This document shows, piece after piece, positions 9,232 through 25,119 of a stretch of DNA of 46,233 bases. The notes under the pieces were generated by a model. It saw only the letters and a program-made list of their open reading frames with translations. It ran no database searches and had not been told where the DNA came from. The stretch covers positions 1 to 46,233 of the forward strand of contig DASTYK010000173.1 in assembly GCA_035764935.1 (NCBI GenBank), written 5' to 3'. The position numbers and the translations under genes are program-made. Position 1 is the stretch's first letter. Each line of letters starts with the position of its first letter. The DNA comes from Longimicrobiales bacterium (GTDB lineage: Bacteria; Gemmatimonadota; Gemmatimonadetes; Longimicrobiales; RSA9).

Positions 9232-10455
9232 ATGCCTCTCGATCGCCTGGATGACGTACTCGCAGCACATGTCGCGAAGCTGGACGAGGCCGGCACCGCC
9301 AAGGGCGCCGAGACCGTGGTGGTCGAAGTGCTCCCATCATCCGGTGAGCGCGGACCGCGCTTCCGGCTCGAGGGAGAGGGCCAGCGCGAGTTCATCCGGA
9401 TGAACTCCAACTCCTACCTCGGACTGTCGCTGGTCCCCGAGATCATGAGCGCCGAAGAGGAAGCAACCGCACGCTGGGGCGCGGGCCCGGGCGCGGTGCG
9501 CTTCATCAGCGGCACCTACGAGCCGCATGTCGCGCTCGAGCGGCGGCTCGCCGCGTTCCACGGCCGCGAGGCCGCGATGATCTTCAGCTCCGCCTACGCC
9601 ACGGTGCTCAGCACGATCGTGCCGCTCACCACCGACCAGACGGTTCTCATCAGCGACGAGCTGAACCACAACTGCATCATCAACGCGATGCGCCTGGCCA
9701 GGCCGGCGGACAAGTTCGTGTACCGCCACAACGACGTGGCCGACCTGGAGCGCGCGCTCGAGGAGGCCAGCGGCAAGGGGCAGCGTGCGATCGTCGTCAC
9801 GGACGGCATCTTCTCGATGCGCGGTGATCACGCGCCGCTCGCGGAAATCGCCGAACTGTGCAGCCGCTACGACGACCGCTTCGCGGAGAACGTCGTGCTG
9901 GTCGTCGACGACTCCCATGGCGTGGGCGCCTTTGGCCGCACCGGCCGCGGCACGGAGGAGTACACGGGCGCCCACTGTGACGTCCTGGTCGGCACACTCG
10001 GCAAGGCGTTCGGCGTGAACGGCGGCTACGTCACGGCCGACGCTGCGGTCATCCGTTTCCTGCGCGAGACCAGCCCCATGTACATCTATTCGAATCCGAT
10101 CACCGTCGGCGAAGCCGCCGCCGCGCTGCGCGCCGTCGAGCTGCTCGACAGCGACGCCGGGCGCGCGCGACTGGATCGCCTCCGCTCGCTCACCCGCCGC
10201 TTCGAGCAGGGGCTCCTGGACGCCGGCTTCGAGACGATTCCGGGCGAGCACCCGGTCGTTCCCCTGATGGTCCGCGACACCGCGCGCACCCGCGCGCTCA
10301 TCGCCCACCTCCGCGCCAACGGCGTCCTCGCCACGGGACTCGCCTACCCCGTCGTGCCGCGCGGCGACGAGGAGATCCGGTTCCAGGTGAACGCGGATCA
10401 TACGGAAGGGGACATCGATGAGGTGCTGGCGGTTTTGCGGGCGTTTACGGCATGA
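9232..10455 (+). CDS. kbl: 2-amino-3-ketobutyrate CoA ligase (glycine C-acetyltransferase)
   Basis: This PLP enzyme of the alpha-oxoamine synthase family splits 2-amino-3-ketobutyrate with CoA into glycine and acetyl-CoA. The PLP lysine is K258 in GTLGKAFGVNGG. The cofactor-ring residues are in DDSHGVGAFGRTG (about 226-238), and DELNHNCIINAMRL is typical of the family. Length is 407 aa, against about 400 for E. coli Kbl. ATG 9232 has GGAG 6 nt upstream and was preferred to an earlier ATG at 9211. Placement after the threonine dehydrogenase makes a two-step threonine degradation pathway and argues against BioF or serine palmitoyltransferase. The gene ends 4 nt before a long inverted-repeat element. 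Confidence 0.92.
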   Translation: MPLDRLDDVLAAHVAKLDEAGTAKGAETVVVEVLPSSGERGPRFRLEGEGQREFIRMNSNSYLGLSLVPEIMSAEEEATARWGAGPGAVRFISGTYEPHVALERRLAAFHGREAAMIFSSAYATVLSTIVPLTTDQTVLISDELNHNCIINAMRLARPADKFVYRHNDVADLERALEEASGKGQRAIVVTDGIFSMRGDHAPLAEIAELCSRYDDRFAENVVLVVDDSHGVGAFGRTGRGTEEYTGAHCDVLVGTLGKAFGVNGGYVTADAAVIRFLRETSPMYIYSNPITVGEAAAALRAVELLDSDAGRARLDRLRSLTRRFEQGLLDAGFETIPGEHPVVPLMVRDTARTRALIAHLRANGVLATGLAYPVVPRGDEEIRFQVNADHTEGDIDEVLAVLRAFTA

Positions 10456-10459
10456 ACGG

Positions 10460-10649
10460 CGGGTTATGGGCGGTGGGGGTCGGGAGACGCGCTTCGCTGC
10501 GCTCGCGCTTGGGTGGTGGACACTTCGGGACGTCTTGACACCGGGCGCTCGGCGGTGGGTGCCGGGCGGCCCACCCAGGGTCCGCCGCCCGGTGTCGTGA
10601 CGTCCCGAAGTGTCCACCACCCACGCCTGCCCCCGACGCCCATAACCCG
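10460..10649. repeat. long inverted-repeat element without a gene (family shared with 21745-22312)
   Basis: Two arms face each other. The outer 13 bp (10460-10472 and 10637-10649) pair perfectly. The inner arms (10511-10547 and 10586-10622) are 37 bp long and pair perfectly except for 2 central mismatches. They contain the core GGGTGGTGGACACTTCGGGA. The 38-nt interior (10548-10585) has its own smaller GC hairpin. The left arm holds about 24 extra bases between outer and inner blocks. The same outer and core motifs recur as inverted arms around the four-helix-bundle gene at 21.8-22.2 kb. The element starts 4 nt after the kbl stop and ends 20 nt before the truA promoter. It may act as a terminator. 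No target-site duplication was found. Confidence 0.8.
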
Positions 10650-10669
10650 AATTTCTTTACCACACCGAG

Positions 10670-20273: not shown

Positions 20274-20356
20274 ACTGAGCGCACGGCAGCGGCCGTGCAG
20301 ACCTGATGTTGCGCGGCCGACGCAGGCCGTTCACTCGATATGGAGCAGGACACGCC

Positions 20357-21739
20357 ATGTGTGGGATCGTCGGCATCACCGGCACTGAGCGCGCAGCAGA
20401 GCTCGCGTTCCTCGGGCTCTACGGGCTGCAGCACCGCGGCCAGGAAGCCGCGGGCATCTCCGCGGTGGACGCCGACGGACGCACCCGGTTGCACAAGGCC
20501 GAAGGGCTCGTCGTCGAGGCATTCGACGACGAGCGGCTGAGCGACCTGCCCGGCCGCACCGCGCTCGGTCACGTGCGCTACTCGACGGCGGGCGGCGTCG
20601 GGCTGGTGAATGCTCAACCCATCGTGGTGCGTTACCACCAGGGTGACCTCGGGCTCGTCCACAACGGCAACATCACCAATGCGCAGATGCTCCGTGAGGA
20701 GCTGGTCCGCGAAGGTGCGCTCTTCCAGTCGACGGTGGACTCGGAAGTGCTCGTGCACCTGATCGCACGCTCACGCGAACCAACCGTGGAACTGCAGCTG
20801 GCGGACGCTCTGTCGCGGCTGGCAGGTGCGTTCTCGGTGCTCGTGACGGTGGGCGAGACGCTGTATGCAGCGCGCGACCCGTGGGGCTACCGGCCCCTGA
20901 TCATGGGGCGGCTGCCGGACGGCGGTGTTGCCGTCGCGAGCGAGACGTGTGCGCTCGACCTGATCGGCGCCCGCAACCATTGCACCCTCGGCCCGGGCGA
21001 GGTCGTGCGGATCGAAGGCGACGAGATCACGTACCTGCCACGCCTGGAAGGTGCGGAGCGCCAGGCACCGTGCATCTTCGAGCTGGTCTACTTCGCGCGA
21101 CCGGACTCGCGCATCTGGGACGTGAGCGTGGACCGCGCCCGCCGCGCGTTCGGGCGCCAGCTTGCAAAGGAGCATCCGGTCGACGCCGACTGCGTCTTCA
21201 GCGTCCCCGACTCCTCCAACTCCGCCGCGCTCGGCTACGCCGAGCAGAGCGGTATCCCGCTGGAGCTCGGCCTGATCCGCAACCACTACGTCGGCCGCAC
21301 GTTCATCCACCCATCGCAGACGGGCCGCGACTTCAAGGTCCGCATCAAGTACAACGCGGTCCGCGAGGTAATCGAGGGCAAGCGCGTCATCGTCGTCGAC
21401 GACTCGCTCGTCCGCGGCACGACCAGCCGCGGCCTGATCAGCATGATCCGCGAGGCCGGCGCCACGGAAGTGCATTTCCGCGTCGCCAGCCCCCCCGTGA
21501 TCTCCCCCTGCTACTACGGCATCGACATGCCGACCAAGGACGAGCTGATCGGCGCGAACCACACGATTGAAGAAATCCGCGAGCACCTCAACGTGGACAC
21601 CCTCGGATACCTGTCACTGGACGGGATGCACGGAGCCGTCGCGGAGCGCGGGCCGTTCTGTGATGCGTGTTTTTCGGGGAACTACGTGGCGCCGCTGGTG
21701 GATTTGAAGATGGGGCGGCCTGTTTCTTCGCACTGCTGA
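20357..21739 (+). CDS. purF: amidophosphoribosyltransferase, Fe-S (Bacillus) type
   Basis: PurF makes phosphoribosylamine from PRPP and glutamine, the first step of purine synthesis. Translation starts at ATG 20357 (AGGA about 7 nt upstream), so Cys2 directly follows Met and becomes the glutaminase nucleophile (MCGIVGITG) after Met removal. The PRPP motif is VIVVDDSLVRGTTSRG. Four cysteines (in APCIFEL, SPCYYGID and the pair FCDAC) occupy the positions of the 4Fe-4S ligands of Bacillus subtilis PurF, implying an oxygen-sensitive cluster. The B. subtilis enzyme has a short propeptide that is absent here. Length is 460 aa. It is the last gene of the operon; a repeat element begins 5 nt after its stop. 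Confidence 0.97.
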   Translation: MCGIVGITGTERAAELAFLGLYGLQHRGQEAAGISAVDADGRTRLHKAEGLVVEAFDDERLSDLPGRTALGHVRYSTAGGVGLVNAQPIVVRYHQGDLGLVHNGNITNAQMLREELVREGALFQSTVDSEVLVHLIARSREPTVELQLADALSRLAGAFSVLVTVGETLYAARDPWGYRPLIMGRLPDGGVAVASETCALDLIGARNHCTLGPGEVVRIEGDEITYLPRLEGAERQAPCIFELVYFARPDSRIWDVSVDRARRAFGRQLAKEHPVDADCVFSVPDSSNSAALGYAEQSGIPLELGLIRNHYVGRTFIHPSQTGRDFKVRIKYNAVREVIEGKRVIVVDDSLVRGTTSRGLISMIREAGATEVHFRVASPPVISPCYYGIDMPTKDELIGANHTIEEIREHLNVDTLGYLSLDGMHGAVAERGPFCDACFSGNYVAPLVDLKMGRPVSSHC

Positions 21740-21744
21740 TACCT

Positions 21745-22312
21745 GCGGGTTTTGGGCGGTGGGAGATGCGAGTTGGGTGGTGGGCACTTCGGGACTCGAC
21801 GGCGGGTGGTGGGCGGTGGGTATCGCCCTCAGCCGCTGCGAGCACGCTCCTCGAGGGTCAGGATCGCCTTTGTCAGCATGGACATGAGCATTCCTCCCAG
21901 ATCCCAGGCGCGGCGGATCCTCTCGTCGGTGACGACCCTCTTCAGAACCAGGCGGCGTAACACGGCACGCGCCTCATTGGCTTCCTTCCTGGCGATTTCG
22001 TAGCAACCGATCTTCACTCGTGGCCGGTATGCACCAGCGCCTTCCGCGATGTTGAACAGTACCGATTCCGCTGATCGCTCGAGATGATTGGCGGAGTTCG
22101 ATGCCGTGAAGCGCACTTGCTCCACGATCCCATCGACCTCCGCCACATACTGCTCTGCGGCCTGCCACATGCGCATCTTCTCGTATTGCATGACGGCAGG
22201 ATGAACCCAGTGACGGGGCGTCGGAATAGCGCGGCGGGTCGCCCGCCGCCCGCAGTCGAGTCCCGAATTGTCCACCACCCACCTCGCATCCCCCCACCGC
22301 CCAGAACCCGCC
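21745..22312. mobile_element. inverted-repeat element carrying a four-helix-bundle (S23-family) gene
   Basis: The left arm (21745-21800) and right arm (22255-22312) are inverted copies of one sequence of about 56-58 bp. It consists of an outer block GCGGGTT-T/C-TGGGCGGTGGG, then GATGCGAG, then the core beginning GGGTGGTGG and ending TTCGGGACTCGAC. The 26-bp core matches at 24 positions. Further G-rich sequence continues inward on both sides. Between the arms is a single 120-residue gene on the minus strand. The outer block and core also form the gene-less element at 10460-10649. No transposase is present and no target duplication was found, so the mode of spread is unknown. The element begins 5 nt after the purF stop and lies 80 nt upstream of ppdK. 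Confidence 0.7.
21829..22191 (-). CDS. four-helix-bundle protein, 23S rRNA intervening-sequence (S23/IVP) family
   Basis: The 120-residue protein starts MQYEKMRMWQAAEQYV and contains the family hallmark SAESVLFNIAEGAGAYRP followed by YEIARKEANEARAVLRRLV. Known members form four-helix bundles, assemble as pentamers, are distantly related to the Avd accessory protein of diversity-generating retroelements, and were first found encoded in intervening sequences of 23S rRNA genes. Their biochemical role is not established. The gene is antiparallel to its neighbours purF and ppdK and lies wholly between the inverted arms at 21745-21800 and 22255-22312. No clear ribosome-binding sequence precedes ATG 22191. 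The longer open frame upstream of that ATG runs into repeat sequence and is not credible. Confidence 0.88.
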   Translation of the reverse strand: MQYEKMRMWQAAEQYVAEVDGIVEQVRFTASNSANHLERSAESVLFNIAEGAGAYRPRVKIGCYEIARKEANEARAVLRRLVLKRVVTDERIRRAWDLGGMLMSMLTKAILTLEERARSG

Positions 22313-22392
22313 GTTACAGGAAAAGCGGCCTGATTGTTGAAACGCCTTCTCTCCATTCGCCACTCAGCCAACTCATTCGGAGGCCCGCACAG

Positions 22393-25119
22393 ATGCCCGG
22401 GAAGTACGTGTTCTACTTCGGCAACGGCTTCGCGGAAGGATCGAAGGACGACAAGCAGGCACTCGGCGGCAAGGGCGCCAACCTCGCCGAGATGACGCGC
22501 ATCGGTGTGCCGGTGCCGCCGGGGTTCACGATCAACACGGATGCCTGCCGCGTCTACCTGCGTGAGGAGCGGTATCCGCCGGACCTGGAGCAGGAGGTCG
22601 CGGCTGCGCTCCAGCGGGTCGAACAGGATACCGGCAAGCGGTTCGGGGCGCTGGAGAATCCGCTGCTGCTGTCCGTCCGGAGCGGTGCGGCCATCTCGAT
22701 GCCGGGCATGATGGACACGATCCTGAACCTCGGGCTGAACGACCACACCGTGGAGGCGCTTGCCAGCGCCTCGAACGACGCGCGCTTCGCGTGGGACTCC
22801 TACCGTCGGTTCGTGCAGATGTACAGCGATGTGGTGCTGGGCGTGCCCGGCTCGGAGTTCGAGGAGCAGCTCGAGGTGGTGAAGCACGAGCGTGGCGTTG
22901 TCGAGGACACGGAGCTGAGTGCCGATGACCTGCGGGGCCTCGTCGGGAAGTTCAAGGCGCATGTGCGCGACCGCATCGGGATGTCCTTCCCTGATGATCC
23001 GCAGATCCAGCTATGGGGTGCGATCGAGGCCGTGTTCCGCTCCTGGAACGTCGAACGCGCGATCGCCTACCGTCGCGTGCACGGCATTCCCGACTACCTC
23101 GGCACGGCGGTGAACGTCCAGTCGATGGTGTACGGCAACCTCGGCGACGATTCGGGGACCGGTGTCGCGTTTACGCGAAATCCGTCAACTGGTGAGCGCA
23201 GGTTCTTCGGCGAGTTCCTGGTGAACGCGCAGGGAGAAGACGTGGTTGCGGGGATCCGCACGCCGCTGTCGATCGAGGAAATGGAGCACAGGCTGCCGGG
23301 GGCGTACCGGCAGCTGCTGGAGGTGCAGGACCGGCTGGAGCAGCACTACCGCGAAATGCAGGACCTCGAGTTCACGGTGGAGCGCGGAACCCTCTATCTG
23401 TTGCAGACGCGCACCGGCAAGCGGACCGCATCGGCGGCGATCCGCATTGCAGTCGAGATGGTCGCAGAAGGGCTGATCGACCAGCGGGAGGCTGTGCTGC
23501 GCGTCGATCCCGCGCAGCTCGACCAGCTGCTCCATCCGCGCCTGGACCCGGATGCGGAGGTGACAGTGCTGGCGAGCGGTCTGCCGGCGTCGCCCGGGGC
23601 GGCGACGGGCGTCGTCGTATTCCACCCGGACCACGCGGTGGAGCTCGCGGCGGAGGGGCAGCCGGTCATCCTGGTGCGCAACGAGACCTCCCCGGACGAC
23701 TTCCACGGCATGGTCGCCGCCAGGGCGGTGGTCACGGCGCGGGGCGGCATGACGTCGCACGCCGCGGTCGTCGCACGTGGGATGGGCAAGACGTGCGTTG
23801 TCGGTGCTTCGGAGCTGCACGTGCGCGGCGGCGAGTGCCGGGCGAGCGGCCACACGCTGCGCGAGGGCGACTGGATCACGGTCGACGGCACGGCAGGCCG
23901 GGTGCTGCTGGGCAAGCTGCCGACGGTCGATCCGGAGCCCGACGAGAACTTCAAACTGCTCATGAGCTGGGCGGATTCCTTCCGGCGCCTTGCGGTTCGT
24001 ACGAATGCGGACACACCGCATGACGCCGAGAAAGCGCGCGAGTTCGGTGCCGAAGGCATCGGCCTCTGTCGCACGGAGCACATGTTCTTCGATGGCGAGC
24101 GCATCCAGGCCGTGCGCGAGATGATCCTGGCCGAAACGCCGCAGGGGCGGACGAACGCGCTCGCCAGGATTCTGCCCATGCAGCGCGACGACTTCGTCGG
24201 CATCTTCCGCGCAATGGACGGACTGCCGGTCACGATCCGCCTCATCGATCCGCCATTGCACGAGTTCTTGCCGCACGACGAAGACGAGGTGCAGCAGTTT
24301 GCCGCTGCTGCGGGCATCACGATCGACGTCGTGCGGCGGCTGATCGACCGGTACACCGAGCAGAATCCGATGCTGGGGTTCCGCGGTGTGCGACTGAGCG
24401 TCGCGTACCCGGAGATCATCGAGATGCAGGTGCGCGCGATCTTCGAGGCAGCGACCCGGGTTACCAGGGATGGCGGCGACGTCCGGCCGGAGGTGATGGT
24501 CCCGCTCGTTGCGGATGTGAAGGAGCTCGCGCGGCTGCGCAGCGCGATCGAGCAGATCGCCGAGCAGGTGCTCGGGGAGGCCGGCGTCGAGCTGCCGTAC
24601 CTGGTCGGCACGATGATCGAGCTGCCGCGCGCCTGCCTGCTCGCGGGCGACATCGCCAAGGAGGCAGACTTCTTCTCCTTCGGTACCAACGATCTCACGC
24701 AGACGACGTTCGGCATCTCGCGCGACGACGCGGCGAACTTCCTCCCGCAATACCTGGAAGCGGGCCTCTTCAAGGACGATCCGTTCCAGGTGCTGGACCG
24801 CGAGGGCGTCGGACAGCTCGTGCAGATGGCGACGTGGGAGGGACGCCAGCGACGCCGTGACCTCAAGGTCGGCATCTGCGGCGAGCACGGCGGCGAGCCG
24901 AGCTCGGTCGAGTTCTGCCATGAGACCGGACTCGATTACGTCTCGTGCTCCCCCTTCCGTGTGCCGATTGCACGCCTCGCCGCGGCGCACGCCGCGCTGC
25001 GGACCGACGGCTTCCTCACCGACAAGGCACAGGTTCGTGTAGAGCGCGCCGAGTCGGGCGCTGCAGCGCAGACGCTGGCCGCACGGCAGCGACCGGAGGT
25101 GGGGATCAGCGGGGATTGA
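22393..25119 (+). CDS. ppdK: pyruvate, phosphate dikinase
   Basis: PPDK interconverts pyruvate, ATP and phosphate with phosphoenolpyruvate, AMP and pyrophosphate, feeding gluconeogenesis or, in reverse, glycolysis. The 908-residue protein has the three expected domains: an N-terminal ATP-grasp region (LGGKGANLAEM, SVRSGAAISMPGMMDTILNL), the swivelling phosphohistidine domain with His456 in GGMTSHAAVVARGMGKTCV, and the C-terminal PEP/pyruvate barrel (GFRGVRLSVAYPEI, FSFGTNDLTQTTFGISRDD, GICGEHGGEP). His456 matches the known catalytic position (455 in Clostridium symbiosum). ATG 22393 has GGAGG 9 nt upstream. The gene is the first after the repeat element and its 3' end is part of a short direct repeat. 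Confidence 0.97.
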   Translation: MPGKYVFYFGNGFAEGSKDDKQALGGKGANLAEMTRIGVPVPPGFTINTDACRVYLREERYPPDLEQEVAAALQRVEQDTGKRFGALENPLLLSVRSGAAISMPGMMDTILNLGLNDHTVEALASASNDARFAWDSYRRFVQMYSDVVLGVPGSEFEEQLEVVKHERGVVEDTELSADDLRGLVGKFKAHVRDRIGMSFPDDPQIQLWGAIEAVFRSWNVERAIAYRRVHGIPDYLGTAVNVQSMVYGNLGDDSGTGVAFTRNPSTGERRFFGEFLVNAQGEDVVAGIRTPLSIEEMEHRLPGAYRQLLEVQDRLEQHYREMQDLEFTVERGTLYLLQTRTGKRTASAAIRIAVEMVAEGLIDQREAVLRVDPAQLDQLLHPRLDPDAEVTVLASGLPASPGAATGVVVFHPDHAVELAAEGQPVILVRNETSPDDFHGMVAARAVVTARGGMTSHAAVVARGMGKTCVVGASELHVRGGECRASGHTLREGDWITVDGTAGRVLLGKLPTVDPEPDENFKLLMSWADSFRRLAVRTNADTPHDAEKAREFGAEGIGLCRTEHMFFDGERIQAVREMILAETPQGRTNALARILPMQRDDFVGIFRAMDGLPVTIRLIDPPLHEFLPHDEDEVQQFAAAAGITIDVVRRLIDRYTEQNPMLGFRGVRLSVAYPEIIEMQVRAIFEAATRVTRDGGDVRPEVMVPLVADVKELARLRSAIEQIAEQVLGEAGVELPYLVGTMIELPRACLLAGDIAKEADFFSFGTNDLTQTTFGISRDDAANFLPQYLEAGLFKDDPFQVLDREGVGQLVQMATWEGRQRRRDLKVGICGEHGGEPSSVEFCHETGLDYVSCSPFRVPIARLAAAHAALRTDGFLTDKAQVRVERAESGAAAQTLAARQRPEVGISGD

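Follow-up and report, generated by a model that had tools for sequence, protein, structure and literature searches.

What is a single gene for an S23/IVP four-helix-bundle protein doing between long inverted repeats at the junction of two protein genes, and does it have any part in how those repeats spread? The role of the S23 protein and the mobility of the rRNA intervening sequences (IVSs) that carry it have been standing questions for more than 25 years. We addressed them at the purF-ppdK junction of a Longimicrobiales bacterium, in a window (the whole stretch of DNA analyzed) of 46,233 nucleotides from a draft genome that is 96% complete.

An S23 gene within paired arms

The cassette consists of a left arm (positions 21740 to 21820, plus strand), an S23/IVP four-helix-bundle gene (21829 to 22191, minus strand; 120 amino acids, with its ATG at 22191), and a right arm (22240 to 22316, minus strand) that is the same repeat in inverted orientation. 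The left arm, one unit of a dispersed repeat, directly follows the stop codon of a purF-like glutamine amidotransferase gene (20306 to 21739, plus strand; GATase_6/GATase_7 domains) and holds an internal direct repeat (21745 to 21763 and 21802 to 21820). The right arm lies 77 bp from the start of a pyruvate phosphate dikinase (PPDK) gene (22393 to 25119, plus strand; PPDK_N and PEP-utilizers domains). An earlier note on this DNA had described a lone S23 gene, antiparallel to both neighbors and enclosed by inverted arms of 56 to 58 bp; this layout is confirmed, with the amendment that the arms measure about 77 to 80 bp and that those first recognized are parts of them. A repeat search pairs positions 21761 to 21815 with 22240 to 22294 (55 nt, 87% complementary) and 21740 to 21763 with 22293 to 22316 (24 nt, 88%), and a gapped alignment of one arm with the other spans 77 columns at 86% identity. 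The arm pair scores 82 bits, whereas 700 geometry-matched control positions in this and related genomes score at most 31. The predicted RNA fold of the whole unit, arms and S23 gene together, is one long hairpin (z = -9.6) in which the arms are paired end to end. No Rfam family matched between positions 10000 and 23000 of the window, and the S23 gene is the only gene between the arms, such that the cassette itself contains no transposase gene.

The encoded protein is a member of the S23/IVP family, as judged by its score against PF05635 (E value of 9e-13; 48.8 bits, with a curated cutoff of 33.8) and by its fold, and it also matches TIGR02436. Its structure model is a confident four-helix bundle (pLDDT of 96.6), whose nearest relatives in a Foldseek comparison are the S23 structures 2rld and 2gsc, followed by the Avd protein of diversity-generating retroelements (8ub7 and 4dwl; TM scores of 0.71 to 0.78). 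The family assignment in the earlier note is thereby upheld, and the kinship to Avd that it proposed agrees with the Avd-like fold. Among 28 S23 proteins placed in a tree, the window's has the longest branch, at 4.6 changes per site, and it lacks the stretch FYRIARRSATE that is conserved in its relatives; inspection of the sequence ahead of the gene revealed no obvious ribosome-binding site. Given the very long branch and the lack of an obvious ribosome-binding site, this copy may be decaying even if the class as a whole is active; it may instead be specialized.

Four S23 genes in four dispersed repeat families

The genome encodes four S23 genes, all of them enclosed by arms, and the arms belong to four different dispersed families, so that each S23 gene has a repeat family of its own. 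The arms of the other three are 57, 42, and 49 nt long and 88 to 96% complementary, and these arm types are present genome-wide at 8, 34, and 11 places. Both arms of the window's cassette, used together as a query, matched 38 places; about 17 positions outside the cassette carry part or all of the unit of roughly 80 bp, some as single copies and others as inverted pairs that face head to head across a short loop. The dispersal of the arms, on which the earlier note's suggestion of a mobile unit depended, is therefore borne out. One S23-less pair of this family lies in the window itself (10453 to 10652), where a 20-bp core taken from the unit is matched 4 times against 0.01 expected. Inverted pairs with this polarity and without S23 occur in two of the other three families (L246 in one; L247, L248, L249, and L252 in the other), and thus in three of the four families once the window's own is included. 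The left half of the pair at 10453 to 10652 contains an extra small hairpin, cgcgcttcgctgcgctcgcgc; elsewhere in the genome, such hairpins vary between copies.

No Y1 transposase (PF01797, the RAYT type) was matched in the 96% complete genome, although control genomes were positive, and a reverse transcriptase domain (RVT_1) was likewise undetectable. The absence of a transposase claimed in the earlier note thus stands for the interior of the cassette and, genome-wide, for the Y1 type, the only family sought in trans, and a RAYT was rejected as the mover. Its suggestion of a link to reverse transcription is not supported despite the Avd-like fold of the protein: with no RVT_1 detected in the genome, a diversity-generating retroelement was rejected as well.

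Recurrence of arms around S23 genes

With each gene scored by its strongest inverted match up to 250 nt away, 14 of 19 S23 genes from the same order have arms of at least 40 bits, whereas none of 700 control positions do. At a threshold of at least 35 bits, the count rises to 15 of 19, and no geometry-matched control (0 of 700) or intergenic-flanked open reading frame (0 of 37) reaches it. In these relatives, S23 genes are carried together with their flanking arms, in agreement with the earlier note's reading. A broader set of 58 loci was obtained by scanning GTDB genomes for patterns of conserved S23 peptides; being found by peptides rather than arms, it was chosen without bias towards arms. 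Sixteen of these loci reach at least 35 bits (0 of 696 controls do so), in Gemmatimonadota, Myxococcota, Legionellales, Planctomycetes, Bacteroidota, Binatota, and others, and a minority of the S23 genes in this set show clear arms.

Most of the genomes compared were assembled from metagenomes, where repeats cause contigs to break. In one genome, two near-identical S23 cassettes (L062 and L063, on contigs C144 and C366 of G001) each sit at a contig end, as expected of repeated elements that break assemblies; their ends are identical, their proteins are 95% identical, and the changes are mainly silent. Relatives of the same order (L169, L170, L173, L174, L178, and L179) have an S23 cassette with AGTGCCY arms apparently inside an operon, with flanks that, from gene names read by eye, resemble adjoining pyruvate dehydrogenase subunit genes. 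At another locus (L056; G004:C17:1-300), the S23 arm is a telomere-like array, GGGTTAGGGTTGGGGTTAGGG.

Arm sequence and S23 lineage

The arms are mostly built of tandem 6- to 8-mers, with a significant period of 6, 7, 8, or 12 nt in 30 of the 36 arms tested; in the window's own arm, periodicity is borderline (z of 3.0 at lag 7). Arm similarity in 5-mers correlates with S23 protein similarity when arm GC content is controlled for (partial Mantel r = 0.38), within GC-rich arms (r = 0.46), and once near relatives are thinned out (r = 0.27), with 0 of 3,000 permutations reaching the observed value in each case. By this measure, arm sequence tracks the relationships of the S23 proteins, and because joint descent of whole cassettes would also yield such co-variation, it is to be read as linkage, not as binding.

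In the tree of 28 proteins, L053, L055/L060, L029, and L031 form a group (UFboot of 92, SH-aLRT of 93), most members of which have CACG-type arms. Their four loci are the purF-ppdK junction of G009, another locus in G011 and G003, and the lpd-ugd and thiolase-nifU junctions of the genome studied here. The S23 gene of G009 has the same junction and orientation as that of the window, next to a purF-like gene 73% identical to the window's; the two S23 proteins are 33% identical, and their arms are unrelated. The metH junction is similarly occupied by different S23 genes in G000 and G008. Trees in which the S23 proteins common to one junction form a clade were not rejected by the AU test for either junction (p = 0.26 for purF-ppdK and 0.16 for metH), and these pairs may reflect either replacement or fast vertical divergence.

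One junction across ten species

In one genus, ten species were compared at the junction where a lysine-decarboxylase-like gene adjoins a deoxyhypusine synthase gene: six have an S23 gene there, and four lack one. The earlier note had pointed to empty sites in sister strains as a sign of mobility: S23-less versions thus exist for this junction, and none were found for purF-ppdK. The intergenic DNA of S23-less sites differs throughout from that of S23-bearing ones, and the comparison revealed no insertion with clean junctions or target duplication. In one S23-less species (L159 in G043), the short intergenic region has a solo direct array, ACACAGAG x3, where the cassette would be.

The five full-length S23 proteins at this junction are 63 to 74% identical to the first of them, and their dN/dS ratios of 0.11 to 0.28, which are rough because synonymous divergence is high, show that the protein is under purifying selection in these relatives. 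Since the S23 gene points the same way in each of the six species, frequent inversion is unlikely, and we rejected the idea of an inversion switch. The unit of which the arms are made changes from species to species (AGTCCTA, GTGCGTGA, AGTGCTA, or AGTCCTT), and an arm resembles its partner in the same cassette more closely than it resembles partner arms taken from other species: of 720 permutations, 2 (the observed arrangement among them) equal or exceed the observed value, a figure that is only indicative because the arm strings were cut by hand. Applied to a second locus, where variation is low, this test gave a weak result (6 of 120). Concerted change of both arms could stem from gene conversion between them, from selection for the hairpin, or from a spreading process.

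Arrays of the AGTSCTW unit number 14 to 346 in the four genomes with such arms and 0 to 3 in four of the six without, the two exceptions having 88 and 159 arrays and no matching S23 arms; array counts therefore follow S23 arms in 8 of the 10 genomes. Strict dependence of arrays on S23 is rejected, with arrays in 4 of 4 genomes that have matching arms and also in 2 of 6 that do not (Fisher p = 0.07; Mann-Whitney p = 0.035). Counts of the GTGCGTGA pattern showed no clear link to S23, and the reversed motif is unusable as a control, being the same motif in another phase; G017 has 71 GTGCGTGA arrays and no S23 match in its genome.

How might the cassettes spread?

The reading that we favor, to which we give an even chance, is that of a selfish-element-like cassette whose S23 protein recognizes its own arms and aids their spread. 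The two inverted arms, which are repeats of short units specific to one S23 lineage, would form a long hairpin with the S23 gene in its loop; the S23 protein would bind this hairpin, as DNA or RNA, and help both the cassettes and those inverted pairs of the repeat that lack S23 to reach intergenic sites. Cutting and joining would fall to host enzymes, as we infer from the failure to detect a Y1 transposase or reverse transcriptase in the 96% complete draft. Arguing for this reading are the anatomy of the cassette and its recurrence, enriched over controls; the placement of four S23 genes in four dispersed families, three of which have S23-less pairs; protein-arm co-variation; one S23 lineage at four loci; the low dN/dS ratios; and AGTSCTW counts that follow the arms in most genomes of the genus. 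Against it stand the lack of any observed insertion with clean junctions or target duplication, the AGTSCTW arrays in two genomes without matching arms, the GTGCGTGA arrays of S23-less G017, the more than half of S23 genes in the broad set that have no clear arms, and a co-variation that joint descent could explain.

Several of these points would be accommodated if S23 were a passive passenger, with inverted tandem-unit repeats spread by some other process, S23 genes ending up in their loops, and recombination of the arms with each other and with further arrays in the genome keeping them alike. Arrays and inverted pairs do occur without S23, in G017 without any S23 match at all, and gene conversion would be expected to change both arms of one locus in concert; chance capture, though, would be expected neither to place the four S23 genes of one genome in four repeat families nor to make arm type follow S23 lineage across loci and genomes, and we regard this account as rather unlikely. 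Less probable still is an element that acts at the RNA level, in which the arms pair in the transcript and RNase III cuts the stem, the benefit lying in tolerance or control of the host mRNA and inheritance being mainly vertical. This would suit the strong predicted hairpin, the cassettes inside operons (e.g., between pyruvate dehydrogenase genes), the RNase III cleavage known from Coxiella (PMC4990558), and the inheritance of one locus across six species, but the folding of inverted repeats follows from their sequence and is no evidence for processing, and such an element alone would leave the dispersed families and the one S23 lineage at four loci unexplained. We consider it most improbable that an ordinary insertion sequence or MITE system is moved in trans by an undetected transposase: the S23-less pairs are MITE-like, inverted arms are present, and only the Y1 family was sought in a draft genome, yet within one genome the four S23 genes have entirely different arms, mostly made of tandem short units, unlike transposase ends, no inspected cassette has a second gene, and the pattern spans many phyla.

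Relation to known systems

The nearest counterpart of the cassette is the IVS of 23S rRNA genes (Coxiella burnetii and Leptospira), and the earlier note's proposal that this layout has been placed between protein genes is supported by the stem-forming ends and the S23 gene in the loop. The Coxiella IVS has complementary ends around an S23 open reading frame and is excised by RNase III in the stem, and tandem heptamers (GACAGAT) lie beside its 5' arm, comparable to the short tandem units described here (PMC4990558). The window's cassette differs in lying between purF-like and PPDK genes and not in a 23S rRNA helix; genomes here contain many cassettes, each arm type being a dispersed repeat with S23-less pairs; and selection on S23 in relatives is purifying, whereas the open reading frame in Coxiella is thought to be decaying. 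In their dispersal, the repeats resemble REP/REPIN sequences and their RAYT (TnpA-REP) proteins, with short intergenic repeats in inverted pairs and one repeat family per cognate protein gene, itself flanked by repeats. Here, by contrast, the genome has no Y1/RAYT protein, the linked gene encodes S23, which has no known catalytic residues, and the arm units are tandem 6- to 8-mers, whereas REPs are palindromic. Because the cassette lies outside rRNA and a RAYT is absent, it is best read as a variant of the rRNA IVS kind that acts like a REPIN system. TAACTGA repeats of Beggiatoaceae and cyanobacteria are also tandem heptamers at many intergenic sites, but nearly all are direct, not inverted, and S23 is not mentioned in their description (PMC4679880).

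Our search of open-licence papers turned up no account of S23 genes enclosed by dispersed inverted repeats, although one could exist elsewhere, and the separate arm family of each S23 gene, the tandem short units, the arm-protein co-variation, and the spread over many phyla go beyond the earlier note. Mobility of the rRNA IVS has long been suspected (PMC4990558), and a 1993 proposal, as cited there, held it to be a mobile element whose open reading frame is needed for mobility. Several non-rRNA cassettes per genome, each with its own dispersed repeat, make this idea directly testable because cognate and noncognate arms provide a built-in specificity control. Were it confirmed, many of the short tandem-repeat arrays that bacterial genomes contain would also gain an explanation of their origin. 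A wider and more tentative proposal, which we think somewhat less likely to be right than wrong, is that S23 proteins are widespread repeat-dispersal factors, each recognizing its own short-unit hairpin arms without a dedicated transposase, and that the rRNA IVS is merely their best-known landing site. The 23S rRNA IVP domain has also appeared in another setting, a figure legend in PMC10910872 listing it with other proteins newly linked to CRISPR adaptation modules.
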